Shown in pieces: positions 325 through 28,559 of a DNA stretch of 43,616 nt. This stretch comes from Zetaproteobacteria bacterium CG06_land_8_20_14_3_00_59_53 (GTDB lineage: Bacteria; Pseudomonadota; Zetaproteobacteria; Mariprofundales; Mariprofundaceae). Positions within the stretch are counted from its first letter, which is position 1. Every line of letters begins with the position of its first letter. The notes under the pieces are model-generated. The model made no database searches. It saw only the letters and a program-made list of their open reading frames with translations, and had not been told where the DNA came from. The position numbers and the translations under genes are program-made. Where the stretch lies: NCBI GenBank assembly GCA_002779605.1, contig PEWE01000028.1, positions 1-43,616 on the forward strand. Direction: 5' to 3'.

Positions 325-1233
325 ATGCGCTGGATGCGAACCGCTTTGTCGATTGCCGGAATGATTTCCACCTGCTTTCTATCTGCCGGTTCGGCGCATG
401 CGCAAACAGAGTGGGCCGAATGGATCGCGGATGCCGAAATTGAAAGCAGCACTGACGACAACATCAATCATGGCGTATTTGCTTCCGAAAAACGCAGCGA
501 TACATCGTATACCCCCAAACTGACCGCCGGCCGTATCCTGCAGCTTGCAGATTATTCCCGACTAAGCCTGACAGGCCGATATACAGCCGAATTGCATAAC
601 AACATCCGGCAACTGAGCTCGCACAATTTCGGCGGGACTCTGGCCATACAGCACAAATTCGGCCTCGGGCCGTTTGTGCCATGGCTTCGCGCAAACGCCT
701 CGGCCATGCGCATCAACTCCAGAAGCAATATCCGCGACGGACAATCATATATTTTCGGCCTGCAAGCCGGAAAACGCCTGAATGATCGCCTGTCGCTGCG
801 CCTGGCATATAGCCACGACATCCGCAAAGGCCCGGCTTCAAGCCCTGTAAGCGGCATTACCCCTAACCCGGGCGGCAGGGTTTTCGATATGCAGGGCAAT
901 AGCGCATCGCTGGGCCTCGATGCGCTGCTAACGGAAAGAACCCTGCTTCGCGTGGGCTATACCTTCCGCAGGGGGGATATCGTCGCCACGCGCGCCTGGA
1001 ATCCGGCAACCGCCTCCAGCCCTTATGTACTGGCGGTAACGACCGATGATGCCATCCCCGGAACGGCCTATCGGCTGAATGCACAGGTGCATACGTATCG
1101 AGCCGACATCAGCCATTCCTTTCTCGATGGCCACGCTTCCGCCGATATCGGCTACGAACGCCGCAGCAGCAAAACCGGCCTGTTCACCTACACAAACAAT
1201 ATCTTCCGCGCCAATGTCATTTACAGCTATTAA
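325..1233 (+). CDS. Predicted outer-membrane beta-barrel protein, function unknown
   Basis: A 302-residue exported protein. I chose the ATG at 325 because a strong GGGGAGGG ribosome binding site sits 6-13 bases upstream and because it places a signal peptide at the N-terminus: MRWMR, a hydrophobic stretch, then an AHA-Q cleavage site near residue 26. The mature part has alternating polar and hydrophobic segments rich in Tyr, Arg and Ser (for example RLSLTGRYTAEL and LLRVGYTFRRGD) and ends in a C-terminal aromatic residue (VIYSY), as outer-membrane barrels do. The next gene overlaps its 3' end, so they are probably cotranscribed. Its partners, a cupredoxin-like protein and a membrane cyclase, suggest a role in sensing or envelope function, not shown by the sequence. 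It could also be a porin-like channel. Confidence 0.75.
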   Translation: MRWMRTALSIAGMISTCFLSAGSAHAQTEWAEWIADAEIESSTDDNINHGVFASEKRSDTSYTPKLTAGRILQLADYSRLSLTGRYTAELHNNIRQLSSHNFGGTLAIQHKFGLGPFVPWLRANASAMRINSRSNIRDGQSYIFGLQAGKRLNDRLSLRLAYSHDIRKGPASSPVSGITPNPGGRVFDMQGNSASLGLDALLTERTLLRVGYTFRRGDIVATRAWNPATASSPYVLAVTTDDAIPGTAYRLNAQVHTYRADISHSFLDGHASADIGYERRSSKTGLFTYTNNIFRANVIYSY

Positions 1234-1933
1234 TCCACCCCTGATTCTACAGAGCGGAGATTGCCGGCTTTGCGGAATAATCGCGATCCGCCTTCTTTTG
1301 GTGATCATCGTGTGCCTGCTGCCTGCACAAACGGCTCGCGCAGGCGAACTGCTGTTCAGCGTCAGCGAAGCATCGGGCAGCCCTGTGCAGGATGCGGTGG
1401 TATTCGCCACACCACTGGGAAACATCGACACGGCGCAAGACAAAACCACCACAGTCGCCATAGATCAGATCGACAAGGAATATGTGGACATGGTGACGAT
1501 CGTACAAAAAAACACCGGCATCGTTTTCCCCAACCACGACAACATCCGCCACCATGTGTATTCCTTCTCGCCAGCCAAAACCTTTGAAATCCCCTTATAT
1601 CTGGGCACTCCGCGGGAGCCGGTCATCTTCGACCAGACAGGCCCGGTATCACTCGGCTGCAATATTCACGACTGGATGTCAGGCTATATCTATGTAGTCG
1701 ATACACCGTATTTCGCCAAGACAGGAGAGGATGGTCTGGCAAGGCTGGAACTGCCCGCCGGAGAGTACCGGATCGGGATCTGGCATTTCCGCATGAAGGG
1801 CCCGGCAAGCGCAACCGGCCAAATGGTCAGCGTGGGTAGCGGGGCTGTGCAATTGAATAACGTCATCACGCTGAACAGGGTCTGGAGAGCGGTGCGCGGC
1901 CCGGCTGATAATCGTCTGGGAGGCTACCGCTGA
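1214..1933 (+). CDS. Periplasmic cupredoxin-like protein (methylamine-utilisation-protein type)
   Basis: About 239 residues from the ATG at 1214, which overlaps the barrel gene by 20 bases. The start is uncertain: TTG or GTG codons near 1300, inside the hydrophobic segment, are alternatives. A signal-peptide-like hydrophobic stretch (residues 22-38) is followed by a mature region that begins near AGELLFSV. A probable type 1 copper site is visible: His113/His114, then Cys149, His152 and Met155 in GCNIHDWM. Proteins of this type are usually annotated as methylamine utilisation proteins, but there are no methylamine genes here, so that name should not be read as function. A carboxypeptidase-regulatory-like segment follows (LPAGEYRIGIWH). 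It lies between the barrel gene and the cyclase, which suggests that it works with them at the periplasmic face. Confidence 0.75.
   Translation: MSFTAINPPLILQSGDCRLCGIIAIRLLLVIIVCLLPAQTARAGELLFSVSEASGSPVQDAVVFATPLGNIDTAQDKTTTVAIDQIDKEYVDMVTIVQKNTGIVFPNHDNIRHHVYSFSPAKTFEIPLYLGTPREPVIFDQTGPVSLGCNIHDWMSGYIYVVDTPYFAKTGEDGLARLELPAGEYRIGIWHFRMKGPASATGQMVSVGSGAVQLNNVITLNRVWRAVRGPADNRLGGYR
1918..1932 (+). promoter_or_regulatory. Ribosome binding site and probable CTG start of the cyclase
   Basis: GGGAGG at 1918-1923 is followed after six bases by CTG at 1930, which overlaps the TGA stop of the cupredoxin gene as CTGA. This is the same geometry as the common ATGA coupling, with CTG in place of ATG. 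No ATG, GTG or TTG exists in this frame between the in-frame TAA at 1909 and the GTG at 2080. Confidence 0.6.
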
Positions 1934-3849
1934 GGCTGAGGCTGCAATTCAGAAGCTTCCAGAGCCGGCTGCTGTTCTTCTTCGCCGGCCTGCTGGGCGT
2001 TTTTATTATCAGCTTCTTCAGCGCCGTTCACCAAGCCATTCTGGATAGCACTAAGGCGCAGATTGTTGCGGATCTGGAAGTGGCGGAACGGGTATTCGAG
2101 CAACTGATGCAAAGCAGACGTCAGAAGCTGGCTGACGGGGCTCGCGTATTATCGGCTGATTATGCATTCAAACAGGCCATAGCCACCGGCGACCGAGATA
2201 CGTTGCTTTCTGCCCTGAATAATCTGCGGAACCGGATCGGCGCTGATAGCATGCAGCTTGTATCGATGGATGCACTGCTTAAGGCCGATACCTCCCGCCC
2301 GGATGCCTATGGCGGGCCCTTTGAATTCGCCTCCCTGATTGAGCTGGCGGAACAGAGCGGGGAAGCATCGGGCATTGTGTTCCAAGGAAACGAAACCCAT
2401 CAGGCAGTTGTCGTGCCCCTGTTGGCCCCCGATCCGGTTGCCTGGCTGTGCATCACCTTCCGCATCGGTGCGGCGCTGGTCGGGGAACTCAAGGCAACCA
2501 CGCATGCAGATATCTCCCTGCTTCATCTCCGCGACAACAAGGCTGAGCTCATTGCCTCCACATTACCTATGCCTATGCAGCATGAATTATCCGCAAACCC
2601 GACTGGCATCATGTCTTCGATTAGCGAGCCTGTGATGCTCATAATGGGGGGCAGCGAGCATGTAAGCCGCGGTTCAATCCTGCAGCAGAACGGACACGGA
2701 GTCGTGCTGGCCGTCTTACAGCGCTCGATGCAGGAAGCGCTGCAAGCGTTCTATCGATTGCGCTCCATGCTGCTGCTGATATCCCTGCTGGGTCTTGTAT
2801 TGACGGCAGCCGGTATCTTCTGGCTGAGCCGATCGGTAACGCGGCCGGTAAAGCTGCTGGCCGAAGGGGTCCGGGAAATCGAGCAGCATCGTTTCGAACA
2901 TCGCATATCCATGGACCGGCAGGACGAGTTCGGCAATCTCGCGGGAGCTTTCAACAACATGGCCGAAGGACTCGTCGAACGGGACAAGGTGCGTGATCTG
3001 CTCGGCAAGGTTGTCTCTCCGGAGGTGGCGCACGAATTAATGCGTTCGGAGGTAAAGCTCGGGGGTGAAGAGCGTAGCATGACCGCCTTCTTCTCCGACA
3101 TCGCGGGATTCACGTCGATATCGGAGGCAATGCAGGCACCCGATCTTGTGCAGTTGCTTAACGAATACCTCACTGCCATGGGCGAAATCATTCAGCAATG
3201 CGGCGGTGTGATCGACAAATATATCGGCGATGCCATCGTAGCGTTCTGGGGTGCCCCCGTTACGAATGAGCAACATGCAGAGCATGCTGTTCGCGCCGCC
3301 GTACGAATGCAAAAAAGGCTTGAGGAACTTCGCCAGCAATGGCGCGAACAGGGTAGAACCGAGCTGTTCGTGCGCATGGGCATCAATTCAGGAGCCATGG
3401 TTGTCGGCAATATGGGTTCCAGAGACCGGATGGATTACACAATGATCGGCGACGCAGTCAATCTGGCTGCCCGGCTTGAAGGCGCGAACAAATACTACGG
3501 CAGCACCATTCTGGTTTCCGAATTCACCCATGCGATGATCCAAGAAGTTTTTCTGTGCCGTGAACTCGACCGGATTCGCGTGCAGGGAAAAAACGACGCC
3601 ATCCGCATCTATGAAGTCATCGCCGAGATAGATAATGCCAGCCCCATGATGCGGGATTCAGCGGCAAGATTTGAGGAAGCCTTGCGGGCCTTCCGCCGCA
3701 TGCGATTCGAAGAGGCCGCCCCCCTGTTTAAACATTGCATCGAAACCACCGGCGACCCGGCCAGCCAACTGTATCTGCAACGCATCACCGACCTTGTCGC
3801 GAACCCGCCGGCTGCAAACTGGGACTGGACTTATCACATCAGCAAATAG
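1930..3849 (+). CDS. Membrane-bound class III adenylate/guanylate cyclase with periplasmic sensor and HAMP
   Basis: About 639 residues. The first ATG/GTG/TTG candidate in frame (GTG 2080) would remove an evident first membrane helix. The frame is open from 1912 and offers only CTG starts; CTG 1930 lies six bases after GGGAGG and overlaps the upstream stop as CTGA. Order: helix near residues 13-32, periplasmic sensor region about 33-275 (possibly Cache-like), second helix about 278-299, HAMP about 300-352, cyclase domain about 385-560, and a short helical tail. Catalytic residues look complete: metal-binding Asp390 (FSDIAGF) and Asp434 (IGDAIVAFW), adenine-selecting Lys430, Asn511 and Arg515 (VNLAARLE). 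Thr504 at the second specificity position is the class IIIb pattern, a group with bicarbonate-stimulated members. ATP is the likelier substrate. A perfect 7-bp hairpin follows at 3883-3899. Confidence 0.9.
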   Translation: MRLRLQFRSFQSRLLFFFAGLLGVFIISFFSAVHQAILDSTKAQIVADLEVAERVFEQLMQSRRQKLADGARVLSADYAFKQAIATGDRDTLLSALNNLRNRIGADSMQLVSMDALLKADTSRPDAYGGPFEFASLIELAEQSGEASGIVFQGNETHQAVVVPLLAPDPVAWLCITFRIGAALVGELKATTHADISLLHLRDNKAELIASTLPMPMQHELSANPTGIMSSISEPVMLIMGGSEHVSRGSILQQNGHGVVLAVLQRSMQEALQAFYRLRSMLLLISLLGLVLTAAGIFWLSRSVTRPVKLLAEGVREIEQHRFEHRISMDRQDEFGNLAGAFNNMAEGLVERDKVRDLLGKVVSPEVAHELMRSEVKLGGEERSMTAFFSDIAGFTSISEAMQAPDLVQLLNEYLTAMGEIIQQCGGVIDKYIGDAIVAFWGAPVTNEQHAEHAVRAAVRMQKRLEELRQQWREQGRTELFVRMGINSGAMVVGNMGSRDRMDYTMIGDAVNLAARLEGANKYYGSTILVSEFTHAMIQEVFLCRELDRIRVQGKNDAIRIYEVIAEIDNASPMMRDSAARFEEALRAFRRMRFEEAAPLFKHCIETTGDPASQLYLQRITDLVANPPAANWDWTYHISK

Positions 3850-6328: not shown

Positions 6329-7006
6329 TCAGGCTGGAAACGCATCTCCTGCGGCATCGCGGTCAATGTACCAGATCGCATTTTTCACCCTTGCCACAGG
6401 CAGTTGCTCACCGGCACGGATGCGGGCGATGGCCTCCTGCTTCCCCTTGCCGGCCGAAAGAACCAGCACATGGCAGGCGGCATTGAGCACGGCATATCCC
6501 ACAGTGACGCGCTCGGGCGGCGGCTTCGGGGAATCGGATACACCGAAGGCCAGGCGTCCGTCATTCAACGAAGGCTTGCCGGGAAACAGACTGCAGGTAT
6601 GGCCGTCCTCGCCCATGCCGAGATGCACGACATCCATGCGGCCAACGCATGCGAGCTCTGCAGCATACAATCGCGCGCCCTCTTCAGGGCCGAGCTCGGC
6701 ATGCATGCGGTGGATCTGCACATGTGGAATGGCGACATGCGATAACAGCGCCTCGTCGGCCATGCAATCATTGCGATCAGGATGATCTGCAGGAACGCAG
6801 CGCTCGTCGCCAAACCAGATGTGCATGCGCGACCAGTCGAGCTGCATACCGCGCATGACCTCATAGCACTGCCTCGGGGAGGTACCTCCGGCCAGCACCA
6901 GATGGCACACCCCGCGCTCCGCGATCGCCTGATTGCAAGCTTTCACGGTCCATTCGGCTGCGACCCGGGCCAGTGCCATCGCATCGGCGAAAATCTCTAC
7001 CTGCAT
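6329..7006 (-). CDS. pgl: 6-phosphogluconolactonase
   Basis: A 225-residue cytoplasmic enzyme that hydrolyses 6-phosphogluconolactone to 6-phosphogluconate, the second step of the oxidative pentose-phosphate pathway. It has the normal DevB/Pgl length and motifs: the phosphate-binding LAGGTSPRQCYE near residue 38, GDERCVP near 67 and GMGEDGHTCSLFP near 130, with the catalytic His in GHT. It is the last gene of the minus-strand cluster, nine bases after the unregulated zwf, and is followed by the shared terminator. The assignment is secure because all neighbours belong to the same pathway. Confidence 0.95.
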   Translation of the reverse strand: MQVEIFADAMALARVAAEWTVKACNQAIAERGVCHLVLAGGTSPRQCYEVMRGMQLDWSRMHIWFGDERCVPADHPDRNDCMADEALLSHVAIPHVQIHRMHAELGPEEGARLYAAELACVGRMDVVHLGMGEDGHTCSLFPGKPSLNDGRLAFGVSDSPKPPPERVTVGYAVLNAACHVLVLSAGKGKQEAIARIRAGEQLPVARVKNAIWYIDRDAAGDAFPA

Positions 7007-7015: not shown

Positions 7016-8554
7016 CTAATGCCTGGAAAGATCGCGCCAGCCGCCCTGACAACCGGCCAGCAACTCATCCATGCCGGGCACATCGGCATCGCATCCGGGC
7101 ATGCTGCCTGCGGCATAGGTGGCGATATCCTTCTGCTCCTTCCATGCATCGAGGATCGGCATGACGATGTTCCAGCATTCCTCGACCTCGTCGGCGCGGG
7201 AAAACAGGCCCGCTTCACCCAGCATCACATCATGCAGCAGGGTCTCGTAGGCTTCCGGCATGCCGGAACCGGCCATGCCGTAGGAGGCATCGAGCTTCAC
7301 ACCGCGCAGATGCATGGAAAGGCCCGGCTGCTTGGCGGTCATGGTCAGCTGCATGCCTTCATCCGGCTGCAGACGGAAGATCAATTCATTGTTGCGCACA
7401 TTCTCTTCGCTGAGCTTGAACAGCTTCTGCGGCGGTTCGCGGAAGCGGATGCATATCTCCGATACACGATGCGGCAGCCGCTTACCGGTACGCAGCAGGA
7501 AAGGCACGCCCTGCCAGCGCCAGTTGTCGATATAGAACTTCACCGCGGCGAAGGTCTCGGTGGTCGATTCAGGTGCGATGCCCGGTTCCTCGCGATAAGC
7601 GGCTACCGGCTCGCCTTCCACCTCGCCTTCCACCTCGCCTGCCGCGTACTGCGCGCGCACCGCACGATGCTGCAGCGCCCCGGCCTGGAATCTGCGCACC
7701 GAGCGCAACACCTTGAGCTTCTCGTCGCGCACATCGTCGGCCGCCAGCGATACCGGCGGCTCCATGGCCACCAGCGCCATCACCTGCATCAGATGACTCT
7801 GGATCATGTCGCGCAAGGCACCCGAGGTTTCATAATAACCGGCGCGATAGCCGACACCGAGGGATTCCGACACCGAGATCTGCACATGATCGATGTAGTT
7901 GCGGTTCCACAGGGGCTCCAGCACCGAGTTGCCGAAGCGGAACACCATCAGGTTCTGCACCGCTTCCTTGCCCAGATAATGATCGATGCGATAGATCTGC
8001 GATTCGTCGAAACAGCTCTGAATGCTGCGGTTCAGACCCTGGGCGCTGTGCAGGTCCATGCCGAAGGGCTTTTCGATGACCACTCGGCGGAAACCCTCCG
8101 ATTCGTCGTTCAGCCCTGCTGTGTGCAGATGCTGTGCCACGGTCTCATACCATGCCGGCGGAATGGCGAGATAGAACAGCGCATTTTTCCGCCCGTCGTG
8201 GGCATGCAGTTTGTCGGCGATGGCCTGATATGTTTCCGCCTCGCCCAGATCGCCGCTGACCAGCTCCAGCTTTTCGGCGATATGCTGCCAGGAGGCCGGA
8301 TTGAGCACCGCCTCGGGGAAGAATTTCAGCAGTTCGTCGTGCACATAGCTGACCCAGTAGGCATGCGTCCATTTCTGACGCACCACGCCGATGATGCGGC
8401 AGTCGTGGCCCAGCAGGTTCCAGCGGTGCATATGCGCCAGTGCCGGCAACAGCTTGCGCTTGGTCAGATCGCCATTGGCACCGAAGATGACGATATTGGT
8501 CGCCTGCGGCCGCTGGGAGCCGATCAGCGAGGCGAATTTATCATCACCGGCCAC
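7016..8554 (-). CDS. zwf: Glucose-6-phosphate 1-dehydrogenase (second copy, no regulatory domain)
   Basis: A 512-residue enzyme that oxidises glucose-6-phosphate to 6-phosphogluconolactone with NAD(P). Nucleotide-binding GANGDLTK is at 25-32 and the active-site block RIDHYLGKE at 189-197. The size is standard. It starts three bases after the gnd stop, so translation is probably coupled. Odd point: residues 306-315 read GEVEGEVEGE, encoded by a 12-base tandem repeat at 7611-7639 at a place where homologues normally have a short loop; this looks like slippage expansion. A second, clearly different G6PD heads the same cluster (9539-11527), so the two probably differ in regulation or cofactor use. 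Confidence 0.95.
   Translation of the reverse strand: MAGDDKFASLIGSQRPQATNIVIFGANGDLTKRKLLPALAHMHRWNLLGHDCRIIGVVRQKWTHAYWVSYVHDELLKFFPEAVLNPASWQHIAEKLELVSGDLGEAETYQAIADKLHAHDGRKNALFYLAIPPAWYETVAQHLHTAGLNDESEGFRRVVIEKPFGMDLHSAQGLNRSIQSCFDESQIYRIDHYLGKEAVQNLMVFRFGNSVLEPLWNRNYIDHVQISVSESLGVGYRAGYYETSGALRDMIQSHLMQVMALVAMEPPVSLAADDVRDEKLKVLRSVRRFQAGALQHRAVRAQYAAGEVEGEVEGEPVAAYREEPGIAPESTTETFAAVKFYIDNWRWQGVPFLLRTGKRLPHRVSEICIRFREPPQKLFKLSEENVRNNELIFRLQPDEGMQLTMTAKQPGLSMHLRGVKLDASYGMAGSGMPEAYETLLHDVMLGEAGLFSRADEVEECWNIVMPILDAWKEQKDIATYAAGSMPGCDADVPGMDELLAGCQGGWRDLSRH
7611..7639. repeat. 12-base in-frame tandem repeat inside zwf
   Basis: Two full copies and a partial third of TCGCCTTCCACC. On the coding strand it encodes the repeated Gly-Glu-Val-Glu of the second G6PD. 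The repeat adds residues without breaking the frame. Confidence 0.85.
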
Positions 8555-8557
8555 GAT

Positions 8558-9478
8558 TTATTCCTTGTCCGCCGCCTTGATGGCATGCCCGCCGAAACCG
8601 GCGCGCTGCGCATTGACGATCTTGCCGGCATAGGCGTCTTTCTGACGACTGCGGAAGCGCATCTGCAGGGCCAGCGTCAGCACCGGTGTGGGGATGCCCA
8701 GATCGATGGATTCGTTGACCGTCCAGCGGCCCTCGCCGGAATCGTCCATCCAGTCGGACAGCGAGGAGAGGTCCTTGTCCTGCTCCAGCGCATCGCCGGT
8801 GAGATCCAGCAGCCATGAAGAAACCACCGAGCCGTGCTGCCAGACGCGCGAGATCTGATGCATATCCAGATCGAATTCCTCTTTGGCCTTCATCAGCTCG
8901 AAGCCCTCGGCAAAGGCCTGCATCATGCCGTACTCGATGCCGTTGTGGACCATCTTGACGAAATGCCCGGCGCCAACCGGACCGACATGACCCCAACCCT
9001 TGCCGTCATTCGAAGCCAGCGTGGTCAGCGCCGGTGCGATCAATGCAATGGCTTCATCCGTACCGCCGATCATCAGGCTGTATCCGTTCTTCAGGCCCCA
9101 GACGCCGCCGGAAGTGCCGCAGTCGGCGAACAGCACGCCCTTCTCGGCCAGCTCGGCTGCGCGTCGCTGGCCCTCCTTGTAGTTGGAGTTTCCGCCGTCG
9201 ATGATCAGATCGCCCGCCTCGACACCGGCGGCCAGCAGATCGGCTATGCTGCTGTCCACGAACTGGTGTGGCACCATCACCCACAACACGCGCGGCTTCG
9301 GAAGCGCTGCGATCACGCCGGCCAGATCGCTTACCGCAGTGACCGAGGCGAACTCGGCAGCCAGCGCCTTACCCGGTGCTGCATCCACATCGTAGGCCAC
9401 CACATCATGTCCGCCACCGGCCAAACGCTTCACCATATTGCCGCCCATGCGACCCAATCCAATCATTGCCAGCTTCAT
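8558..9478 (-). CDS. gnd: 6-phosphogluconate dehydrogenase (decarboxylating), short form
   Basis: A 306-residue enzyme that oxidises and decarboxylates 6-phosphogluconate to ribulose-5-phosphate. It is the short (about 300 residue) GndA/YqeC-type form rather than the 470-residue Gnd. The Rossmann motif GLGRMGGNM is at residues 8-16. The second strand ends VVAYDVD, where Asp suggests a preference for NAD over NADP. DGGNSNYKEG and the signature DCGTSGGVWGLKNG identify the family, and the KMVHNGIEYGMMQ helix carries the catalytic Lys and Asn. Its product is one phosphorylation step from the RuBisCO substrate ribulose-1,5-bisphosphate, so the pathway could also feed the Calvin cycle. It lies between the two zwf genes. 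Confidence 0.95.
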   Translation of the reverse strand: MKLAMIGLGRMGGNMVKRLAGGGHDVVAYDVDAAPGKALAAEFASVTAVSDLAGVIAALPKPRVLWVMVPHQFVDSSIADLLAAGVEAGDLIIDGGNSNYKEGQRRAAELAEKGVLFADCGTSGGVWGLKNGYSLMIGGTDEAIALIAPALTTLASNDGKGWGHVGPVGAGHFVKMVHNGIEYGMMQAFAEGFELMKAKEEFDLDMHQISRVWQHGSVVSSWLLDLTGDALEQDKDLSSLSDWMDDSGEGRWTVNESIDLGIPTPVLTLALQMRFRSRQKDAYAGKIVNAQRAGFGGHAIKAADKE

Positions 9479-9538
9479 CTTCCTGCTCCCTTTCTTTCTG
9501 ATATGTACGCAGCCTGCGGCGGATCTCCGCCGCGCTGC

Positions 9539-11527
9539 CTAATCCTGTTTGTCGCCGGCCATCAACTGGCTGGCATCGACGATGACGTTGTAGCGCTCGC
9601 GCGCCATCTGCATCACCCGCTCGGCGAACTGCGGCTTGTCCTTCAGCACCTTGCTGAAATCCCGCTTCTCCAGCGTGTACACCACGCAATAGGTCTTGGC
9701 GCGCACAGAGGCCTGACGCTTCTTGGTGAGCAGCAGGCTGACCTCGCCGAACACCTGTCCCTCGCCCAGTTCCGCCTTCACCCAGCCCTTCGGATCGACG
9801 ATCTCCACGCTGCCCTTCTCGATGATGAACAGCTCGCCGCCCTCGGAGCCGTATTGCACGATCTCGTCGCCTGCATTGAACACCATCGGCTTGAGCATCA
9901 TGGCGAAGGCCTTGAGCATGGCATCGCTGCTGCCCTCGAACATCGGCACGCGCTCCAGCACGGTGCGCGAGATGCGGTCCACCCAACGCCGGTGCCCCGG
10001 ATTGAGCAGCTCGAAGGAGGCCTTCGGGCCCCAGGAGCCGAAAGGATAATTGGGGAAGTCTGTCGCCTTTTCGTCACCCCATGCATCCAGCACCGGCTGC
10101 ACGATGCGCCACGAGGTTTCCACCAGATCGGTGCGCGAGAACAGCGATGCATCGCCGTGCATGCAATCGTACAGCATGGTTTCGTAGCCCGTTCCGGGAT
10201 GCACCACAAAGGCCTCGTCGTACTCGAAATGCATATTCACCTTGCGCATATGCATCGAGGGCCCGGGCCGCTTGGCCAGGAAGCGCAACTCGATGCCCTC
10301 GTCCGGCTGGATGCGGAAGATCAGCTGATTGGCCTCCAGCTGACCGAAAGCCGGGGTGCCTCGGAAGGTGAATTCGGGCGCGCGACGGAACTGCACGACG
10401 ATCTCGGTGGCCTTGTTCTCCATGGCCTTGCCGGAGCGCAGATAGACCGGCACACCGTGCCAGCGCCAGTTGTCGATGCGGATCTTCAAAGCCGCGAAGG
10501 TCTCGGTATTGGAATCCGGATGCACATGCGCTTCCTGCCGGTAGCCGACGGCAGGCGTCCCGTCCGGCTTCACGCCAGCGGCATACTGGCCGCGCACCGC
10601 ATTGCGCGCCACATCCTCGCGGCTCATCAGGCGCACGGCGGAGAGCAGCTTGAATTTCTCGTTACGGATGGCATCGGCCTCGAACGAGGTCGGCGGCTCC
10701 ATGCACAGATAGGCCATCATCTGGAACAGATGATTCTGGATCATATCGCGCATCACGCCGGACTTTTCATAATAGGCGCCACGCCATTCCACGCCCACCT
10801 GCTCTGTGGCGGTGATCTGTATATGATCGATATGCGTACGGTTCCACAGGGGCTCGAACATGCCGTTGGCAAAGCGGAAGGCCAGCAGGTTCTGCACCGC
10901 TTCCTTGCCCAGATAATGATCGATGCGATAGACCTGCTCTTCCTTCCAGAAGGCCAGGATCTCCTTGTTCAGGGCGATGGCGCTGGCCAGATCGGTGCCG
11001 AATGGCTTTTCCACGATGATCCGTCGCCAGCCACCGTTGCTGCGGTTCAGGCCCGCCTCGTCGAGGTGCAGCGAGATCATGCTGAACACGGCTGGCGGCG
11101 TGGCCATGTAGAACAGCACATTGCCGCCGGTGGCGTACAACGCATCGAGTTCGACAAGCTTTTCGTGCAGCTGTGTGAAGGCCTGCGGCTCGTCGAATTT
11201 TCCCTGAATATAGTGGATGCCCTGACAGAAGGTCTGCCATGCCTGCTCATCGAAGGGCTCGCGACGGGAGAACTCGCGGATATCCGCATCCATCTTGGCG
11301 CGGAAGGAATCGGTGGTGAAATCGTCCATCGCCATGCCGAGGATGGCGAACGACGGGGGCAGCAGATTGTCGCAGTAAAGATTGAACAGCGAGGGAACCA
11401 GCAGCCGCTTGGTCAGATCGCCGGAGGCACCGAAGATCACCATGATGCAGGGGTCGGCCGCATCGTCGCGCAGTTGCATGGCAGCAGCCAGGTCGGTCAA
11501 AGGCTGTTGCAGAGTCATGTCATTCAT
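9539..11527 (-). CDS. zwf: Glucose-6-phosphate dehydrogenase fused to a C-terminal cyclic-nucleotide-binding domain
   Basis: About 662 residues against roughly 490-510 for ordinary G6PD. Residues 1-515 are a complete dehydrogenase: GASGDLTK at 33-40, IVEKPFG at 171-177 and RIDHYLGKEA at 201-210. Residues 522-650 are a CAP_ED-type domain: VLERVPMFEG start, a beta-roll with GELFIIEKGSVEI, and phosphate-binding cassette FGEVSLLL...RQASV at 593-608. Glu595 (ribose contact) and Arg604 (cyclic phosphate contact) are both present, so binding of cAMP or cGMP is plausible. I chose ATG 11527; the upstream extension of this frame runs through a decayed tRNA and is not coding. It heads the pentose-phosphate cluster, 60 bases before gnd. 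Whether the ligand activates or inhibits cannot be read from sequence. Confidence 0.93.
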   Translation of the reverse strand: MNDMTLQQPLTDLAAAMQLRDDAADPCIMVIFGASGDLTKRLLVPSLFNLYCDNLLPPSFAILGMAMDDFTTDSFRAKMDADIREFSRREPFDEQAWQTFCQGIHYIQGKFDEPQAFTQLHEKLVELDALYATGGNVLFYMATPPAVFSMISLHLDEAGLNRSNGGWRRIIVEKPFGTDLASAIALNKEILAFWKEEQVYRIDHYLGKEAVQNLLAFRFANGMFEPLWNRTHIDHIQITATEQVGVEWRGAYYEKSGVMRDMIQNHLFQMMAYLCMEPPTSFEADAIRNEKFKLLSAVRLMSREDVARNAVRGQYAAGVKPDGTPAVGYRQEAHVHPDSNTETFAALKIRIDNWRWHGVPVYLRSGKAMENKATEIVVQFRRAPEFTFRGTPAFGQLEANQLIFRIQPDEGIELRFLAKRPGPSMHMRKVNMHFEYDEAFVVHPGTGYETMLYDCMHGDASLFSRTDLVETSWRIVQPVLDAWGDEKATDFPNYPFGSWGPKASFELLNPGHRRWVDRISRTVLERVPMFEGSSDAMLKAFAMMLKPMVFNAGDEIVQYGSEGGELFIIEKGSVEIVDPKGWVKAELGEGQVFGEVSLLLTKKRQASVRAKTYCVVYTLEKRDFSKVLKDKPQFAERVMQMARERYNVIVDASQLMAGDKQD

Positions 11528-11568
11528 ATTGGATACCCTGACGCAACGCAGGCTGCGATACTCCCAAG

Positions 11569-11820
11569 AATTTCCGGGCTGCCGACACCATAATAAAGGA
11601 TTGCTGCGAGACAACCCTGATCGGCTGGTGAGCCGAACTGGTCTCGCCCCAGTGACCCACAAGATGAAAAGTCAGTAGTTGAGCGTAATGTATCTCAAGC
11701 ATGCAAGTTGTCAAAGTGTACCAAACAATTTCCGGGCTGCCGACGCCTTGGTATCAAAACGCGCTAAAAACCTTACGTATCAACGCTTTTATATGGTGAG
11801 CCGGACTGGGCTCGAACCAG
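11569..11820. repeat. Imperfect tandem duplication carrying a tRNA-Lys gene
   Basis: An 18-base block, AATTTCCGGGCTGCCGAC, occurs at 11569-11586 and 11727-11744. Each copy is followed by a tRNA-Lys 3' half (from 11626 and 11794). The offsets are 158 and 168 bases, so small indels have accumulated. The downstream copy holds the intact tRNA and the upstream copy is decayed. Just before the first copy, ACTCCCAAG at 11560-11568 matches the acceptor end of the neighbouring tRNA-Glu, so the duplication may have reached into that gene. Confidence 0.75.
11626..11680 (-). pseudogene. Decayed tRNA-Lys remnant
   Basis: On the minus strand the 3' half still matches the intact tRNA-Lys over about 50 bases: encoded CCA, acceptor strand, T-arm region and the ACTTTT anticodon region. 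The T-loop has lost GTTCGA (it reads GGGCGA), the anticodon stem is mispaired, and no D-arm or 5' acceptor strand can be found. It is not expected to work as a tRNA. Confidence 0.75.
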
Positions 11821-11894: not shown

Positions 11895-11970
11895 TGGTAC
11901 TCCCAAGGGGAGTCGAACCCCTGTTTCCGCCGTGAGAGGGCGGCGTCCTGGACCACTAGACGATGGGAGC
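11895..11970 (-). tRNA. tRNA-Glu (anticodon CTC)
   Basis: A 76-base cloverleaf with encoded CCA. The acceptor GCTCCCA pairs with TGGGAGT, the anticodon stem is CCGCC/GGCGG, the loop CTCTCAC gives anticodon CTC, and the T-loop is GTTCGAC. The first 15 bases also encode the last four residues and stop codon of the upstream cheA-like gene. Confidence 0.96.
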
Positions 11971-14832
11971 GTCGTGGGAGGGCGGCATTGTTCTGGATTC
12001 GTCGCCCGCAGTCAATGGGCCAAGAAGGGCGAGCAGGGTTTCATGCAGACCTCCCTGGGCGAGATTCTGCTTGATCAGGTAGGCATCGGCCCCCGCATCC
12101 AGACCCTTCATGCGATCCTCGGCACTTTCGCGGGTGGAAATAATCAATATCGGCATGCCTGCAAAGCGTGGATCGTTACGGATACGGCGAACCAGACCGA
12201 AGCCGTCGAGACGCGGCATCTCCAGATCGGTGACCAGCACGTCGTATTCGCTGCGCTCCAGCTTGTCCACAGCATCCAGTCCATCGATGGCGGTATCCAC
12301 CACCATGCCGAGCGATTCGAGCAGCGAGCGCTCGATCTGCCGAGCGATGATCGAATCCTCCACCAGCAGCGCGCGGACCGCCTGCATGCCTGCGGCTCCG
12401 GGCTGAAGGTCGTGCACCACTTGCATCGGTGCGGTGCGACCCATTTCCTTGATGCCGTAGGGCTCCATCAGCAGCACAACCTGACCGTCGTCGCCGATGG
12501 TATTGCCCATCAGGCCCTGAGCCTGATAACGCTTCAGATATGGATCGAGCTCGCGCACGATAATCTCGGCTTCCTCGAACAGCTGATCCACCACGATGCC
12601 GGTGAATCCGTCGATATGCCGCGCGATGAGAACCAGCTGCACTTCACCGGGAGCGGCATCCTTATCCCCGGAGAACATACGACGAAGATCCACCAGCGGC
12701 ACCGTATGATTGCCGTATCTGACAATCGGCCTGCCCTCCTCGATCAGCAACTCGGAGGCCTTCGGGGCCACCACCTGCTCCACCATGTGGATCAGCATGC
12801 CGAACTTCTGTTCGCCGATGCGGAACATCAGGGCGCGCTGTACGGCGATACTCACCGGCAGGGAGATCAGAAAACGGGTGCCCCTGCCCTTCTCGGTATG
12901 AATGCGGATCACACCGGTCAGGCGACGCACGGTATCCTGCACGACATTCATGCCGATGCCGCGACCGGAGGTCTGATCCACCTCAAGATGCGTCGAGAAA
13001 CCGGGGCGGAAGATCATCTCCAGCGCCTCGGCATCGCTCATCGCGTCCGCCTCGTACTGCGTGGTCACGCCACGCTCCACAGCGACCTGTTTGATATGTT
13101 GCGGATCGATACCCCTGCCGTCGTCGATCACCTCGATATGGATCTCGCTGCCACTCTGCACAGCGATCAGGCTGAGCTGACCGGCCTCGGGCTTACCCAG
13201 CGCACGACGCTCTTCCGGCGATTCGATGCCGTGCACCACCGCGTTGTTGATCAGGTGCACCAGCGGCTCCATCAGCGATTCCACGACACTCTGGTCGCAC
13301 TGCACGGACTCACCGGCGGTGACCAGACGTGCCTTGCGATTATGCCGCCCGGCCACATCGCGCACAGCGCGCGGGAAAGCCGAGAATACGGTATCCAGAG
13401 GACGCAGCATCAGGCCGAGCACCTGGTCGCGCAGATCGTCGAGCATGATGCCCTGACGTCCCACATTGTATTCCACATCCGATGCCAGATGGCGTGTGGC
13501 ACGGCTCAGCCAGTCCATCTGACGGTCGAACATGGTCAGCGACTCGGACGGTGAACCCGCCGGCAATTCGGCCTTGACCTTGCGGGCGATGGACTGCAAC
13601 TGCCCCAGCTGCTTGAGCAGCGACTGCACATCCTGATTCAACTGCGTACCGAAGGCCTTGCCGGTACTCAACTCGATCAGCTGGCCGGACAGCACATTCA
13701 GACGCTCGGCATCCACGCGCAGGAAGCGACCGGAGGTCGCCTGCCCGCCCACCTTGGCCTTGACCTCGCTGACATCCGGACGGTACGAATTGGCTGCGGA
13801 TTCCGGCGTGTCCGCAACAACCGGAGCGGGCTGTTCATCCTGCCCGGACTGCTCGTCCTCTGTTGCATCCTGATGCCCGGAGGTGGCTTTATCCACGCTC
13901 CCGATTTCAGCTCCGGTCTCTTTCACTCCGGTCGGCTTCGCCGCATCCCCGGCGCTCAGCAAGGCATCAAATCGGAGCTGGAAATCCTTCACCTCGATGT
14001 CCGGTGCATCCACGGCCTGCAAACGGACGGCAAGGCGGTCGTGGATGTCCATCAGCAGGCGCGCCATTTCGGGTGTGCGTATCTCCGCATATCCGGTCAT
14101 ACGCTCAACCGCATCTTCGAACAGATGCCCGGCGGCACCCACATCGGCCACGCCGAGCATCAGGGCAGAACCCTTGATGGTGTGCGCATCGCGCTTCAGT
14201 GCGGCCAGACCATCCGCATCCAGCGAACCGGATTCGAGCGCCACCAGAGCCTTATCGATCGAGCCCAGACGACCCCGGGCCTCATCGAAGAACGCGGCGA
14301 TAAACTGTTTGAAATCACCCCATTGACCGTCATCACGTGCACTGCCGGCGACGACTTCCGAAGAAGCACGGATATCCTGCGACTGAGTTTCTGACGGAGT
14401 ATCGGCAGGGCCTGCTTCTGTAACGGCAGGTGCTGGAGACTCCGCCTTGCCATCGGATTCCAGCAGGGATTCATAGCGCTGCTTCAGATCGGCAGTCTCG
14501 ACCGGCTTGCTGTCCACCGCCTGCAGGCGCTCGGCCAGACGATCGTGCATATCAAACAGAAACTGCACCATTGCCGGGGTGCGCAGCGCGGCATTCTTGA
14601 TCAGATGCTCGACCGCATCCTCGAACAGATGCCCTGCTTCACCCACATCGGCCACACCCAGCATCAGGGCCGATCCCTTGATGGTGTGCGCGTCGCGCCT
14701 TAAGCCGGTAAGCCCTTTTTCATCCAGCGATTCGGCTTCAAAGGCCACCAGCGCCTGATTGATCGAACCGAGCCGTTGCCTCGCCTCATCGAAAAAGGCG
14801 GCAATAAACTGGGAAAAATCAGTCGATGGCAT
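11956..14832 (-). CDS. CheA-type hybrid histidine kinase with two Hpt domains and a receiver domain
   Basis: A 958-residue cytoplasmic kinase for a chemosensory array. Order: Hpt1 (1-125, phospho-acceptor His49 in DAHTIKGS), Hpt2 (172-295, His217 in an identical DAHTIKGS), a charged linker, dimerisation region (about 365-480), HATPase (NAVVHG near 531, DDGRG at 571, TSGRGIGMN at 621), CheW-like domain (about 662-805) and receiver (820-938, phospho-acceptor Asp869, Lys921). The two Hpt domains share long identical stretches and look like an internal duplication. It is the last gene of the pilB-receiver/cheW/receptor operon, 34 bases after the receptor. The architecture resembles ChpA-like kinases of type IV pilus systems. 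The final residues APIV and the TAG stop lie inside the tRNA-Glu gene. No CheR or CheB is visible in the window. Confidence 0.93.
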   Translation of the reverse strand: MPSTDFSQFIAAFFDEARQRLGSINQALVAFEAESLDEKGLTGLRRDAHTIKGSALMLGVADVGEAGHLFEDAVEHLIKNAALRTPAMVQFLFDMHDRLAERLQAVDSKPVETADLKQRYESLLESDGKAESPAPAVTEAGPADTPSETQSQDIRASSEVVAGSARDDGQWGDFKQFIAAFFDEARGRLGSIDKALVALESGSLDADGLAALKRDAHTIKGSALMLGVADVGAAGHLFEDAVERMTGYAEIRTPEMARLLMDIHDRLAVRLQAVDAPDIEVKDFQLRFDALLSAGDAAKPTGVKETGAEIGSVDKATSGHQDATEDEQSGQDEQPAPVVADTPESAANSYRPDVSEVKAKVGGQATSGRFLRVDAERLNVLSGQLIELSTGKAFGTQLNQDVQSLLKQLGQLQSIARKVKAELPAGSPSESLTMFDRQMDWLSRATRHLASDVEYNVGRQGIMLDDLRDQVLGLMLRPLDTVFSAFPRAVRDVAGRHNRKARLVTAGESVQCDQSVVESLMEPLVHLINNAVVHGIESPEERRALGKPEAGQLSLIAVQSGSEIHIEVIDDGRGIDPQHIKQVAVERGVTTQYEADAMSDAEALEMIFRPGFSTHLEVDQTSGRGIGMNVVQDTVRRLTGVIRIHTEKGRGTRFLISLPVSIAVQRALMFRIGEQKFGMLIHMVEQVVAPKASELLIEEGRPIVRYGNHTVPLVDLRRMFSGDKDAAPGEVQLVLIARHIDGFTGIVVDQLFEEAEIIVRELDPYLKRYQAQGLMGNTIGDDGQVVLLMEPYGIKEMGRTAPMQVVHDLQPGAAGMQAVRALLVEDSIIARQIERSLLESLGMVVDTAIDGLDAVDKLERSEYDVLVTDLEMPRLDGFGLVRRIRNDPRFAGMPILIISTRESAEDRMKGLDAGADAYLIKQNLAQGGLHETLLALLGPLTAGDESRTMPPSHDAPIV

Positions 14833-16401: not shown

Positions 16402-16974
16402 TTACTCCTGCAGCAAGGCTCTGGCATCCAGCATGTCGTAGCGCACGCCTTCCACCTCCAGCCAGCCATAAACCCCGTGAACCACCGCTCCCGAACTGAC
16501 AATATCATCCAGCAGGCTTTCAGGGACACGGTGAATGGCTGGAACTGAATCCACCCGCAGAGCCACGCGCATGCGGGCATGCCGCAACACCACATAGCGG
16601 GTCGCCTCGCCATCATTGGCCGGCGGCACCGGTAGCGTCATCATACGGCCCGGCTCGACGACGCAGACGATCTGTCCATGCACATTACCGACGCCGAGCA
16701 GATGATCCGGCGCCATCGGCACCGGCGTCAGAGGCATCGGCCGGACAATCTCAGCCACTTCCTTTGCCGCCAGAAGAAAATCGCGTCCACCCATATGCAA
16801 TTGCAGCAAATCGATATCATTCGCCAGCGACTCACCGGTAGTGCTCAAACCGGAAGCTGCACCATCCATGCCGGGCAGCGGCAGACCAGCCAGCAGCTCC
16901 TGCAGGCGGCTACCCTTGAGACTGATCGAAGTGTCCTTTTTCGCCGGCTTTGTCGTCTTTGTGTCATCAACCAT
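16402..16974 (-). CDS. CheW-like coupling protein
   Basis: A 190-residue cytoplasmic scaffold protein that would link the receptor to the CheA-type kinase. A variable N-terminal segment of about 50 residues precedes a CheW domain (LQLHMGGRDFLLAAKEVAEIVRP at about 57-79, LLGVGNVHGQIVCVVEP at about 92-108). It overlaps the 3' end of the pilB-receiver gene by eight bases, so translation is probably coupled. The order pilB-receiver, cheW, receptor, cheA supports one chemosensory unit. PilI-type proteins of twitching systems have the same fold. Confidence 0.9.
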   Translation of the reverse strand: MVDDTKTTKPAKKDTSISLKGSRLQELLAGLPLPGMDGAASGLSTTGESLANDIDLLQLHMGGRDFLLAAKEVAEIVRPMPLTPVPMAPDHLLGVGNVHGQIVCVVEPGRMMTLPVPPANDGEATRYVVLRHARMRVALRVDSVPAIHRVPESLLDDIVSSGAVVHGVYGWLEVEGVRYDMLDARALLQE

Positions 16975-19180
16975 TTGCAGCCCCCAGTACGGCCAGTCGC
17001 ATGCGGCGATACATACCCATGACCTTCTTGACCCTGGCCTGCAACTTCAACGGCTCCACGGGCTTGATAATGTAATCGTCGGCACCGGTTTCCAGTCCTT
17101 CGACTTCATCCTCCTCGCTGTCGCGCGAGGTCAGCAGCATCACCGGCATGCCGTCGAACTTGCCCTGCTCGCGGATGCGCTGCACCAGCTCTGGACCTGC
17201 CATATGCGGCATCTCGTAATCGGAAAGCACCAGATCGAAGGTGTCCTGTTGCAGCATGCGCCATGCTTCCTGACCGTCCTCCGCCTCCAGCGTCACATAA
17301 CCCTGCGCCGAAAGCACAAACTTGACCAGATTACGCACGCTGGCCGAATCATCCACCACCAGCACTCGCGCCTTGCCCTCGCGGGTCGGATCGAGCTCGC
17401 TGGCGCGATTGCGCATGGCTTTGGCCTCAGGCAGCGACACCACACGGTCACTGGAAATACGTTCGGCAAGCTTGAAGCCTTCCGGCGGCGCACCAACGCT
17501 ACTCACCTCGGCCAGGCTTGTGACACCCTGCAGTGCCTTGCTCAGCCCGTCCTCGAACAGGGTGAACATGCCTTCTTCACGCGCCAGCCGCAGCAGGTCG
17601 CGGGCCGATCCGCCCTTGCCGATCAGTTCGCGCATCTGATCGGTGACATACAGCACCTCGTGCACGCCGAGCCGGCCCTTGTAGCCGATATCGGAGCACT
17701 GTTTGCAACCCTTGGGCGCATAAAAGGTCAGGCCCTTGGGGATGTCGATGCGCTGTGCCAGATCCTCCGGCGGTTCCTGCAACACCTTGCAATGCGGACA
17801 CAGGCGGCGCACCAGACGTTGCGCGACCACCATATTCAGCGAAGCAGCCAGACTCGGCGCATCGATCTTCATGTCCAGCAAGCGGCTGATGGTGGATGCG
17901 GCATCGTTGGTATGCAGCGTGGATAGCACCAGATGGCCTGTTTGTGCCGCATGCAGGGCGATCTCGGCGGTTTCGTGATCGCGGATCTCACCCACCATCA
18001 CCACATCCGGATCCTGACGCAGGATCGAACGCAGCGCGGCGGCGAAATTCATACCCGCCGCATTGTTGACCTGCACCTGATTGATGCCCTTGATCTGGAA
18101 TTCGACCGGGTCCTCGACAGTGATAATATTGGTTTCCTGATCGTTGATGCTGTGCAGGAAAGAATAAAGCGTGGTGGTTTTGCCGCTACCGGTAGGACCG
18201 GTTACCAGCACTGCGCCGGTGGGTCGCTTGATGCATTCGCGCACCCGTGCATCGGCGGTCTTCTCGAAGCCCAGCACATCAAGCGACAGTGAAAGACCGC
18301 TCTTGTCCAGAATACGCAGCACCACCTTCTCGCCGTGCATCGACGGCAGTGTGGAGACGCGCAGATCGAAATACCTGTCCCAGATCTTGATGCGCGTGCG
18401 CCCGTCCTGAGGGATGCGGGAATTGGAAATATCCAGCTTGGACATAATCTTGATACGCGAGGCGACCAGTGGGTGGATCTTGGCCGGAAACTTAAGTGTC
18501 GGATGCAGCTTGCCGTCCAGACGCATACGCACCACGCTGCCAGTCTCGCCCGGCTCGATATGGATATCCGAAGCCTTCATCTTCAGTGCCTTGACCATGA
18601 TGCCGTTCACCAGCTTGATGATCGGCGAATCGCCGGCACCGCGCTGAATATCGTCGAGCGAAAGGTCTTCGTCCTTCTTTTTCTCGGTCTGCAGCAGTTC
18701 GGCCCCGCCGTCCCCATCCATCGCCATATCGCCGACCGACATATCGAAATCGCTTTCGCTCTGATACAACTCCTGGATACGCCGGCTGATAGCCTCCGGA
18801 TGAGCAAAACAGGGCATGATCTTCTTGCCGAGATTGAAGCGCAGCGCATCGAGTGCGGAGAAATCCAACGGATCGACGATGGCCACGGCAACATGACTCT
18901 CGGTCTCATCAATCGGCACAAAGTGATGTTCGCGGCAAAAGGCCTCGCTGCAACGGTCGAGCAGACGCTGTTCGGGTTTGATGGCGGAAACATCAAGATA
19001 GGGAAGCTTGTAGATACCAGCCAGCGAGCGCAGCAAGCGGTCGGCATCGACACCGGGAACCTTCAGCAATGCCGCCAGCATCTTGCTATTGGTTTCTTTC
19101 TGCAGCTCGGAAGCCTGGGTGAGCTGTTCCTGACTCACAACTCCGGCCTCGATCAGTTGTCTTTGTAATCTAAGCAGCAT
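16967..19180 (-). CDS. GspE/PilB-type secretion/pilus ATPase fused to a C-terminal receiver domain
   Basis: A 737-residue protein. Residues 1-145 are a PilB/GspE N-terminal domain. The ATPase core spans about 180-570: Walker A GPTGSGKTT (328-336), the Asp-box region ITVEDPVE (353-360), Walker B-like VVMVGEIRD with Glu398, His-box HLVLSTLHTND (416-426), and a zinc-binding tetracysteine C461/C464/C492/C495. Residues 605-730 form a CheY-like receiver with acidic Asp610/611, phospho-acceptor Asp654 and Lys706. Ordinary PilB proteins end near residue 570. The fusion and the downstream cheW/receptor/cheA genes suggest direct phosphorylation control of pilus extension or secretion. Pilus genes (pilC, pilD, pilT) are not in the window. 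Confidence 0.93.
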   Translation of the reverse strand: MLLRLQRQLIEAGVVSQEQLTQASELQKETNSKMLAALLKVPGVDADRLLRSLAGIYKLPYLDVSAIKPEQRLLDRCSEAFCREHHFVPIDETESHVAVAIVDPLDFSALDALRFNLGKKIMPCFAHPEAISRRIQELYQSESDFDMSVGDMAMDGDGGAELLQTEKKKDEDLSLDDIQRGAGDSPIIKLVNGIMVKALKMKASDIHIEPGETGSVVRMRLDGKLHPTLKFPAKIHPLVASRIKIMSKLDISNSRIPQDGRTRIKIWDRYFDLRVSTLPSMHGEKVVLRILDKSGLSLSLDVLGFEKTADARVRECIKRPTGAVLVTGPTGSGKTTTLYSFLHSINDQETNIITVEDPVEFQIKGINQVQVNNAAGMNFAAALRSILRQDPDVVMVGEIRDHETAEIALHAAQTGHLVLSTLHTNDAASTISRLLDMKIDAPSLAASLNMVVAQRLVRRLCPHCKVLQEPPEDLAQRIDIPKGLTFYAPKGCKQCSDIGYKGRLGVHEVLYVTDQMRELIGKGGSARDLLRLAREEGMFTLFEDGLSKALQGVTSLAEVSSVGAPPEGFKLAERISSDRVVSLPEAKAMRNRASELDPTREGKARVLVVDDSASVRNLVKFVLSAQGYVTLEAEDGQEAWRMLQQDTFDLVLSDYEMPHMAGPELVQRIREQGKFDGMPVMLLTSRDSEEDEVEGLETGADDYIIKPVEPLKLQARVKKVMGMYRRMRLAVLGAANG

Positions 19181-25210: not shown

Positions 25211-25250
25211 ATGATTTCCTCTTTGAATTGGGATGATTTTATTTTGCATC

Positions 25251-25266
25251 GCAAGCCTTGTGCCAA
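25251..25266 (-). promoter_or_regulatory. Sigma-54 (RpoN) promoter of glnN
   Basis: On the minus strand the site reads TTGGCACAAGGCTTGC. This fits the consensus TGGCAC-N5-TTGC with GG and GC exactly ten bases apart. The start site would be near 25240, giving a leader of about 30 bases before ATG 25210. I could not see a convincing NtrC dyad in the 170 bases upstream. Confidence 0.85.
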
Positions 25267-25415
25267 CGGAAAATCCAAGCAATATCAACGTCTTTCAGGG
25301 GTGCGCAGGCCACATATGCATAATAGATAGGCCTCTGCTGCACATAATATAGACAAAGCGCCAAAAAGTTACGTCGAAGACGGTTGCTGCAGACGCTGGA
25401 AGATACGGACAAATC

Positions 25416-27755: not shown

Positions 27756-28559
27756 TTATGCAAAGGTGGCATCAATCGCGTGATCGAGCGTATCGCGGAT
27801 ATCCGCGTCATCGGTAATCGGACGAACCAGAGCCATACGGCAGGCAGCCTTCTCCTCGACGCCACCCTTGATCAGGGCCGCCGCATAGGTCAGCAGACGG
27901 GTCGAGATACCTTCATCCAGGCCGTGACCCTTCAGATTGCGCGCAGCACCACCGATGGCGACCAGCTTGGCTGCCAGTTCGGGGGCGATGCCGGTTTCCT
28001 TGGCTACGATGGAGGTTTCCACTTCGGCCGTAGGGTAATCGAATTCAAAAGCGGCAAAACGCTGCTTGGTGGACTGCTTGAGATCCTTCATCAGGCTCTG
28101 GTAACCGGGGTTGTAGGAGATCACCAGCTGGAAATCCTTATGTGCTTCGATGAGCTCGCCTTTCTTGTCCAAAGGCAGTGTGCGGCGATGATCGGTCAGC
28201 GGGTGAATCACCACGGTGGTGTCCTGACGGGCTTCCACCACCTCATCGAGATAGCAGATCGCACCGATACGCGCGGCGGTGGTCAGCGGGCCGTCCAGCC
28301 AGCGGGTGCCGTTGGCATCCAGCAGGTAGCGACCGACCAGGTCGGATGCAGTCATGTCTTCATTACAGGCCACTGTGATGATCGGCTTACCGAGTTTCCA
28401 TGCCATATGCTCGACAAAGCGGGATTTACCACAACCTGTCGGACCCTTCACCATCACTGGCAGGCGGGCGGCATAGGCGGCTTCGTATAGCTCGACCTCG
28501 TCACCCTGCGGCTGATAAAACGGTTCCTGCTTGATCTTATATTGTTCCTTGTCGGTCAT
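27756..28559 (-). CDS. cbbQ: CbbQ, MoxR-type AAA+ ATPase of the RuBisCO activase
   Basis: A 267-residue AAA+ ATPase, the motor of the CbbQO activase. Walker A GPTGCGKS is at 39-46, Walker B is in [11 protein letters not shown], and sensor 1 is in VISYNPGYQ. The C-terminal helical lid is about 200-267. The length and sequence are typical of CbbQ/NorQ. The ATG follows a strong GGAGGG. Its own promoter and a possible CbbR site lie upstream (28590-28595 and 28629-28643). cbbM is about 1.5 kb upstream on the same strand, separated by an opposing pseudogene and a terminator, so cbbQO forms a separate transcription unit. Confidence 0.94.

Follow-up and report, generated by a model that had tools for sequence, protein, structure and literature searches.

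Glucose-6-phosphate dehydrogenase (G6PD) is controlled by NADPH inhibition and by transcription, and the mycobacterial acetyltransferase Pat is controlled by cAMP. Redox control (OpcA, thioredoxin) and structural NADP+ are the other forms of G6PD regulation in the available excerpts of the literature. Here we analyze a G6PD of Zetaproteobacteria bacterium CG06_land_8_20_14_3_00_59_53 that carries a C-terminal cyclic-nucleotide-binding domain (CNBD), encoded on a stretch of 43,616 nucleotides (contig PEWE01000028.1) that we call the window. Several described systems resemble it in part. In the Synechocystis G6PDH-OpcA complex (9emm), G6PD also has a regulatory module, and OpcA binds the C-terminal domain of G6PDH (excerpts of PMC12892837); however, OpcA is a separate redox-sensing protein, whereas here the CNBD lies in the same chain. 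Pat (NF058543) likewise joins a CNBD and a soluble enzyme in one chain, but its CNBD match is at the start of the model, whereas in the present protein a metabolic dehydrogenase carries the domain at its C-terminus. The closest solved CNBDs by sequence, those of SthK and of the 5v4s channel (83–87 bits), share the cassette Glu and Arg, but belong to membrane channels rather than to a soluble oxidoreductase. G6PD-6PGL fusions (excerpts of PMC3148214) also join G6PD to another domain, although the partner there is the next enzyme of the pathway and not a sensor. A single bacterial sequence with a C-terminal G6PD-CNBD fusion, UniProt Q0F2T2, is mentioned in one parenthesis of a 2014 PLoS One paper (PMC4106842); in the accessible part of that paper the mention comes without distribution, cassette, coenzyme, phylogeny or function. 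Beyond it we found no literature study of such a fusion, in a search that left out most subscription journals and bioRxiv preprints. The fusion is real and conserved and has probably moved laterally; it has been noticed once in print and is, as far as we searched, unstudied.

The fused gene lies on the minus strand at positions 9542–11527 (ATG at 11527, stop at 9539–9541), an unbroken frame of 662 residues whose composition is evident from Pfam, NCBIfam and the predicted structure. Its G6PD part (9983–11440, residues 30–515; PF00479 and PF02781) comprises G6PD_N at residues 30–213 (215.8 bits) and G6PD_C at residues 215–515 (390.6 bits), both above the gathering score. The protein passes the zwf equivalog TIGR00871 (613 bits; cut-off 400.6) and scores below the cut-offs of two narrower G6PD models, NF009492 and NF004331. 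The Pfam stretch of the CNBD (9641–9883, residues 549–629) matches cNMP_binding (PF00027) with 61.7 bits against a gathering score of 27.5, and solved relatives and conservation support the assignment; besides the zwf models, the best NCBIfam match of this region is Pat, at 49.9 bits against a cut-off of 460. The phosphate-binding cassette, FGEVSLLLTKKRQASV, contains Glu595 and Arg604. An earlier note on this DNA had described a G6PD running to residue 515 and a cyclic-nucleotide domain in one frame, with these two residues in an intact cassette; its coordinates proved correct, and the strand, which it did not name, is the minus strand. Catalysis is predicted from the GxxGDL coenzyme motif and the RxDHYLGKE active site: G33, G36, D37, L38, E173-K174-P175, R201, D203, H204, Y205, G207-K208-E209, R364, G366 and K367 are invariant in all 38 aligned fused rows, and the one substitution among the motif positions checked is L206I.

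The structure model of the full-length protein, built with a 77-row alignment, has a confident fold (mean pLDDT 86.4, pTM 0.86); a model from 30 near relatives only was poor (pLDDT 58.6). The best 50 of 748 Foldseek matches to it (E≤0.001) are G6PDs, with about 490–535 columns aligned, and the closest solved G6PD by sequence is the Synechocystis enzyme (9emm_A, 496 bits). Our guess is that the CNBD acts from the same face of G6PD as OpcA. The segment joining the two parts, W515–P528, is 14 residues long in every one of the 38 fused rows. A frame of 919 codons on the opposite strand (8834–11593, plus) covers the fused gene and the neighboring gnd; we take it to be an antisense frame, a by-product of codon use.

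To place the fusion, we surveyed 299 genomes of the window's phylum, 78 of them from its order, which we infer to be Mariprofundales (the window's own genome, 3 of the same genus, 70 of the same family and 4 of the same order). Scoring took in no more than 4 candidates from each genome, with a G6PD match threshold of E≤1e-20; the genome surveys sampled this phylum and the planctomycete phylum, and their figures hold among the matches listed. In the order, 61 of 78 genomes have a G6PD match and 17 have none. The full-length fusion is found in 40 of the 78, and 21 have a G6PD match without it (3 of these weak, with a best E of 1e-76 to 1e-99). Among the 221 phylum genomes outside the order, of which 155 match, no match listed (E to about 1e-115) passes residue 533. 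An unfused G6PD accompanies the fused one in 17 of the 40 fused genomes; in the other 23, at least 90% complete in 13 cases, the fused gene is the sole G6PD match.

A contig scan with the linker-CNBD alignment as query, which fusions with a very different CNBD could escape, returned 37 loci, 35 zetaproteobacterial and 2 planctomycete by record title. All 37 carry a fused G6PD that starts at or before residue 26 and ends at or after residue 650. The zetaproteobacterial titles read Zetaproteobacteria, Mariprofundus, Mariprofundaceae, Mariprofundales or Ghiorsea, and include Mariprofundus sp. EBB-1, M. erugo P3 and M. ferrooxydans PV-1, the last being our guess for the source of Q0F2T2. An assembly frameshift joining two genes, which the earlier note had raised, is ruled out by the recurrence of the full-length fusion, which 40 of the order's genomes and several named strains carry. 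The fusion is one true protein, a complete G6PD with a C-terminal CNBD, and both chance and assembly error are excluded. On plasmids, 257 records match the fused protein, and in each of the best 12 the alignment stops short of residue 629. At least 80% of the query is spanned by three of the 257 records; one is Bradyrhizobium BTAi1, whose zwf on NC_009475.1 (70050–71663) aligns to residue 565, beyond the usual end of G6PD.

The cassette is largely conserved. All 40 zetaproteobacterial and all 7 planctomycete fused proteins keep Glu595, whereas Arg604 is kept in 31 of 40 and 7 of 7. The first 30 proteins, at the top of the list, have both residues; the losses appear among the other 10. All nine losses fall in one Ghiorsea-like genus (g2; L154–L162), where Arg604 is naturally replaced by Leu in seven genomes and Gln in two, and where 2 of the 11 fused genomes retain Arg. 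Five rows (L077–L081, two titled Ghiorsea) supply the 5 Leu at position 604 among the 38 aligned rows; matching identity values mark them as five of those nine genes. Residues F593, G594 and L599 are invariant in 38 of 38 rows. How widespread such fusions are was a question raised by the earlier note; in the phyla sampled, 40 of the order's 78 genomes and 7 planctomycetes carry one. The cassette is not universal in them, Arg604 being gone in 9 of the 40.

We compared selection on the two parts by pairwise dN/dS (omega; NG86 script), using only pairs with dS<1.5 in both. Among the zetaproteobacterial proteins with Arg604 the CNBD has a median omega of 0.091 and the G6PD part one of 0.081 (36 of 465 pairs); in the Arg-less group the two medians are 0.102 and 0.083 (7 of 36 pairs usable). 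The zetaproteobacterial CNBD is not decaying, also where Arg604 is gone: purifying selection is similar in both parts. Relaxed selection in the Arg-less group was considered and not seen, the CNBD/G6PD ratio of dN there being 1.46 (36 pairs) against 1.35 in 64 distance-matched others. The pattern in this genus argues that its gating was altered or abandoned, or now answers to another ligand.

The fusion is also present in planctomycetes. Two loci, L082 (Gemmataceae) and L083 (Planctomycetaceae), share 58% identity with the window protein, and the alignment extends through the CNBD. A survey of 392 planctomycete genomes gave matches at E≤1e-100 in 177, and among the matches listed six genomes have the full-length fusion (G299, the genome of L082, and G361, G356, G471, G430 and G602); with L083 this makes seven planctomycete fusions, at 51–61% identity. 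At L083, a gene at 977–3322 that appears transketolase-like from its translation lies immediately upstream of the fused gene. Some planctomycete G6PD frames are long (733–1184 codons), and for those fetched, other fusions were ruled out: the C-terminus ends 0–4 residues past the G6PD match, and the extra stretch lies upstream of the G6PD start and by eye resembles out-of-frame translation.

In a tree computed for 87 G6PD cores (by a quick search, with support from SH-aLRT only and long branches flagged, including L124 and L097) the 35 fused zetaproteobacterial rows form one clade with a support of 100. Together with the 7 planctomycete fused rows they have a support of 82, with an open fork below; the seven alone form one side of a branch with a support of 54. 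The nearest relatives of the fused rows are unfused planctomycete enzymes, L095 (96) and L124 (100), and the 8 native zetaproteobacterial G6PDs, including a second zwf of the window, form a distant clade (100). In the unfused sister (G358; L095/L123) G6PD stops 8 codons past its Trp515, with no CNBD in its frame after that residue, and no separate CNBD gene was seen behind it, the next frame being unlike a CNBD by eye. Because the tree nests the zetaproteobacterial fused enzymes with planctomycete G6PDs, the simplest reading is that a single fusion probably occurred in a planctomycete-type G6PD and was then transferred laterally to an ancestor of Mariprofundales; CNBD loss in the L095 lineage is a possible alternative.

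The coenzyme site sets the fused enzymes apart. In E. coli G6PD, NADP+ preference comes from K18 and R50, and the double alanine mutant does not discriminate (excerpts of PMC4807051); Volke et al. sort G6PD isozymes by that Arg (excerpts of PMC8546961). The Arg of NADP+-specific G6PDs is absent from the window fused protein, which has Met67 at the position equivalent to R50, and 35 of 38 fused rows have Met, Ile, Leu or Phe there. Asp68 follows in 37 of the 38. All 8 native zetaproteobacterial G6PDs have Arg67, as do 19 of 20 planctomycete rows without the fusion and 7 of 11 rows from other proteobacteria. The clade is thus mostly devoid of the NADP+-selecting Arg and has an Asp beside its position, so that the fused G6PD is probably NAD+-leaning. 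Twelve G6PD positions mark the fused clade against the 39 unfused rows, and of these Asp68 alone is absent from both L095 (Lys) and L124 (Ala), each of which has one further difference (274 in L095, 378 in L124). At position 67, L095 has Arg and L124 has Asn. Since Arg67 is already absent in L124, it is Asp68, and not the loss of Arg67 alone, that goes with the fusion.

The next gene points the same way. The 6-phosphogluconate dehydrogenase gene gnd (8558–9478, minus strand) is probably of the NAD+ type by model match (TIGR00872, NAD+-dependent; 375 bits, cut-off 297), and Tyr/Phe-Asp, which we take to be a mark of NAD+ use, follows the second strand in 25 of 25 loci matched. From these sequence features, fused G6PD and Gnd would together make an NADH-leaning pathway. 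Both belong to a closely spaced minus-strand row in the order fused zwf, gnd, unfused zwf and pgl, which is presumably an operon because of the close spacing and common strand. The third gene (7016–8554), absent from the earlier note, encodes a second, ordinary G6PD without a CNBD, recognized by Pfam, NCBIfam and the tree and of the NADP+ type by the Arg at its 2'-phosphate position; pgl (6329–7006; TIGR01198, PF01182) encodes 6-phosphogluconolactonase. Two distant G6PD lineages, one acquired and fused and one native, thus share one gene row (7016–11527, minus strand), and this order of fused and native zwf recurs at L048, L049 and L050.

A source of ligand would be at hand. The window's genome has 8 class III cyclase matches and 15 CNBD matches, and class III cyclase matches occur in 20 of 20 fused zetaproteobacterial genomes checked (of 40), including the nine Arg-less ones; two fused planctomycete genomes have 15 and 5. 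Cyclase loss as the cause of Arg604 loss is ruled out by 5–7 PF00211 matches per Arg-less genome, some of them pieces of one gene. The window itself encodes a dCache-HAMP-class III nucleotide cyclase (2080–3849, plus strand, from a domain scan), which may supply the ligand of the fused enzyme. Its substrate-recognition positions, DKYIGD and YTMIGD, hold Lys and Thr, a pair that we take to be the signature of class IIIb (bicarbonate-responsive) cyclases; by eye the pair is present in 4 of the 8 cyclases of the genome (L040, L042, L043, L044) and was not spotted in the other four. Cyanobacterial cyclases of this kind are stimulated by CO2 or bicarbonate, with cAMP a signal of high inorganic carbon, although deletion of the main cyclase left carbon-uptake affinity unchanged (excerpts of PMC10117731). 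At L082 one further frame separates the fused gene from a cyclase gene about 2 kb downstream. Control by OpcA would require a homologue in the genome, and OpcA (PF10128) has 0 matches in the window's genome, compared with 3 of 14 controls.

Taken together, we consider it probable, though well short of assured, that this G6PD is an NADH-forming enzyme under direct, built-in second-messenger control. In the mechanism that we infer, including its ligand, sign of effect, coenzyme, direction of transfer and physiology, the C-terminal CNBD would bind a cyclic nucleotide, most likely cAMP from the cell's class III cyclases, and would shift the conformation of G6PD through the short linker of fixed length, as a cis-acting switch. 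The ligand would more likely relieve an inhibition by the empty CNBD than impose one, by analogy with PKA and channel CNBDs. The probably NAD+-leaning fused G6PD and the probably NAD+-type Gnd would then draw on stored or imported hexose to form NADH. The window's genome contains a phosphorylase-family gene (PF00343), and stored glucan is therefore a possible source of hexose phosphate. The fused G6PD, which would have come by transfer from a planctomycete, seems to have displaced the native enzyme in 23 of 40 fused genomes, and the window's genus would have kept both G6PDs in one row, the NAD+-type one gated and the NADP+-type one ungated.

Several observations weigh against this account. On the coenzyme, Arg67 is retained in 3 of 38 fused rows, and gnd also passes the NADP-dependent subfamily NF007161 (421 bits; cut-off 271). 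On the signal, a cyclase near the fused gene was noticed at one locus only, L082, and that of the window is about 5.7 kb away on the opposite strand. On the sensor, the planctomycete CNBD is looser, with a median omega of 0.44 against 0.20 in the G6PD part (12 of 21 pairs), and 22 of 38 rows have Arg or Gln at position 605. The matching PKA residue is Ala, and the ligand could therefore be unusual. In the nine zetaproteobacterial genomes without Arg604 the fused gene is the sole G6PD match, and the enzyme can therefore presumably do without the canonical phosphate contact. CNBDs without a cyclic-nucleotide response do exist, as in trypanosome PKA (excerpts of PMC10959531).

A CNBD that is a structural or oligomerization module, unresponsive to ligand, and that stabilizes the G6PD oligomer or docks a partner, would fit the absence of Arg604 in 9 of 40 proteins under similar purifying selection, as well as a match to the family 2B encapsulin shell protein model that is far under its cut-off (43.5 against 400 bits); we nevertheless think it unlikely, since Arg604 persists in 31 of 40 and 7 of 7 proteins across a deep split, Glu595 persists in 47 of 47, and F593, G594 and L599 never vary. 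Gating could also be real with a different small molecule as the ligand (a nucleoside, c-di-GMP or another nucleotide), either generally or only in the Arg-less genus, where Arg604 became Leu or Gln in 9 of 11 fused g2 genomes and the CNBD is still constrained. The ligand switch of trypanosome PKA is a precedent, but its nucleoside-binding CNBD has Glu at the PKA A202 position and has lost the Arg (excerpts of PMC10959531), unlike the window protein with Ser597 and Arg604; matched by PKA numbering, the corresponding residue 597 is never Glu in the 38 rows, which have Ser, Ala, Gly or Cys there. With both cassette residues in 31 of 40 and 7 of 7 proteins, we judge a different ligand distinctly improbable. 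That the CNBD is a bystander, a neutral passenger on a useful G6PD with no role of its own, is hardly credible: its dN is about 1.5 times that of the G6PD part (median ratios 1.46, 1.58 and 1.67 in the three groups), but the zetaproteobacterial omega is near 0.1, the linker length is invariant and the cassette is conserved.

Direct gating by a cyclic nucleotide can be placed in a physiological frame in more than one way. The earlier note had taken the host for an autotroph, in keeping with the RuBisCO gene of the window (30085–31497, minus strand; NF010002), and had linked the device to CO2 fixation, as a restraint on the oxidative pentose-phosphate path during Calvin-cycle operation. As stated, that link is not supported: the fused clade nests with planctomycete enzymes, and RuBisCO was matched in 0 of 7 fused planctomycete genomes, which makes an origin of the device outside an autotroph probable. 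A single RuBisCO match, of 76 bits, occurs in the unfused planctomycete G358. Judged by its coenzyme site, the enzyme would form NADH, and a frame built on restraint of NADPH production may be wrong; the coenzyme evidence suggests a different physiology, with the Calvin-cycle rationale as one possibility only. A broader scheme would run from CO2 status through bicarbonate-sensitive class IIIb cyclases and cAMP to the gated, NADH-forming G6PD, with a planctomycete origin together with Asp68, acquisition by Mariprofundales with frequent replacement of the native G6PD, and rewiring of the switch by Arg loss in the Ghiorsea-like genus. We offer it tentatively and hold it doubtful as a whole; it is made less likely because L124 shows loss of Arg67 before, or apart from, the fusion.

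Elsewhere in the window, a CbbQ-like AAA protein (27756–28559) and a VWA protein (25441–27708) are encoded near RuBisCO. A glutamine-synthetase-like protein of 750 residues (23036–25288, minus strand) falls far short of the curated cut-offs set for both the type I and the type III model. A PilB-like pilus ATPase (16967–19180, minus strand; MshEN, T2SSE) carries a C-terminal response-regulator receiver domain in the same chain (residues 606–717), and near it a CheA-like hybrid kinase with two Hpt stretches and a receiver is encoded at 11956–14832.

The set contains its own natural controls for the proposed gating: the unfused sister enzyme, the native isozyme in the same row and the nine Arg-less genomes. 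If the fused G6PD is gated directly by a second messenger, it would represent a new control logic at the entrance to the oxidative pentose-phosphate pathway and, in the Fe(II)-oxidizing Zetaproteobacteria, a concrete metabolic target of cAMP.

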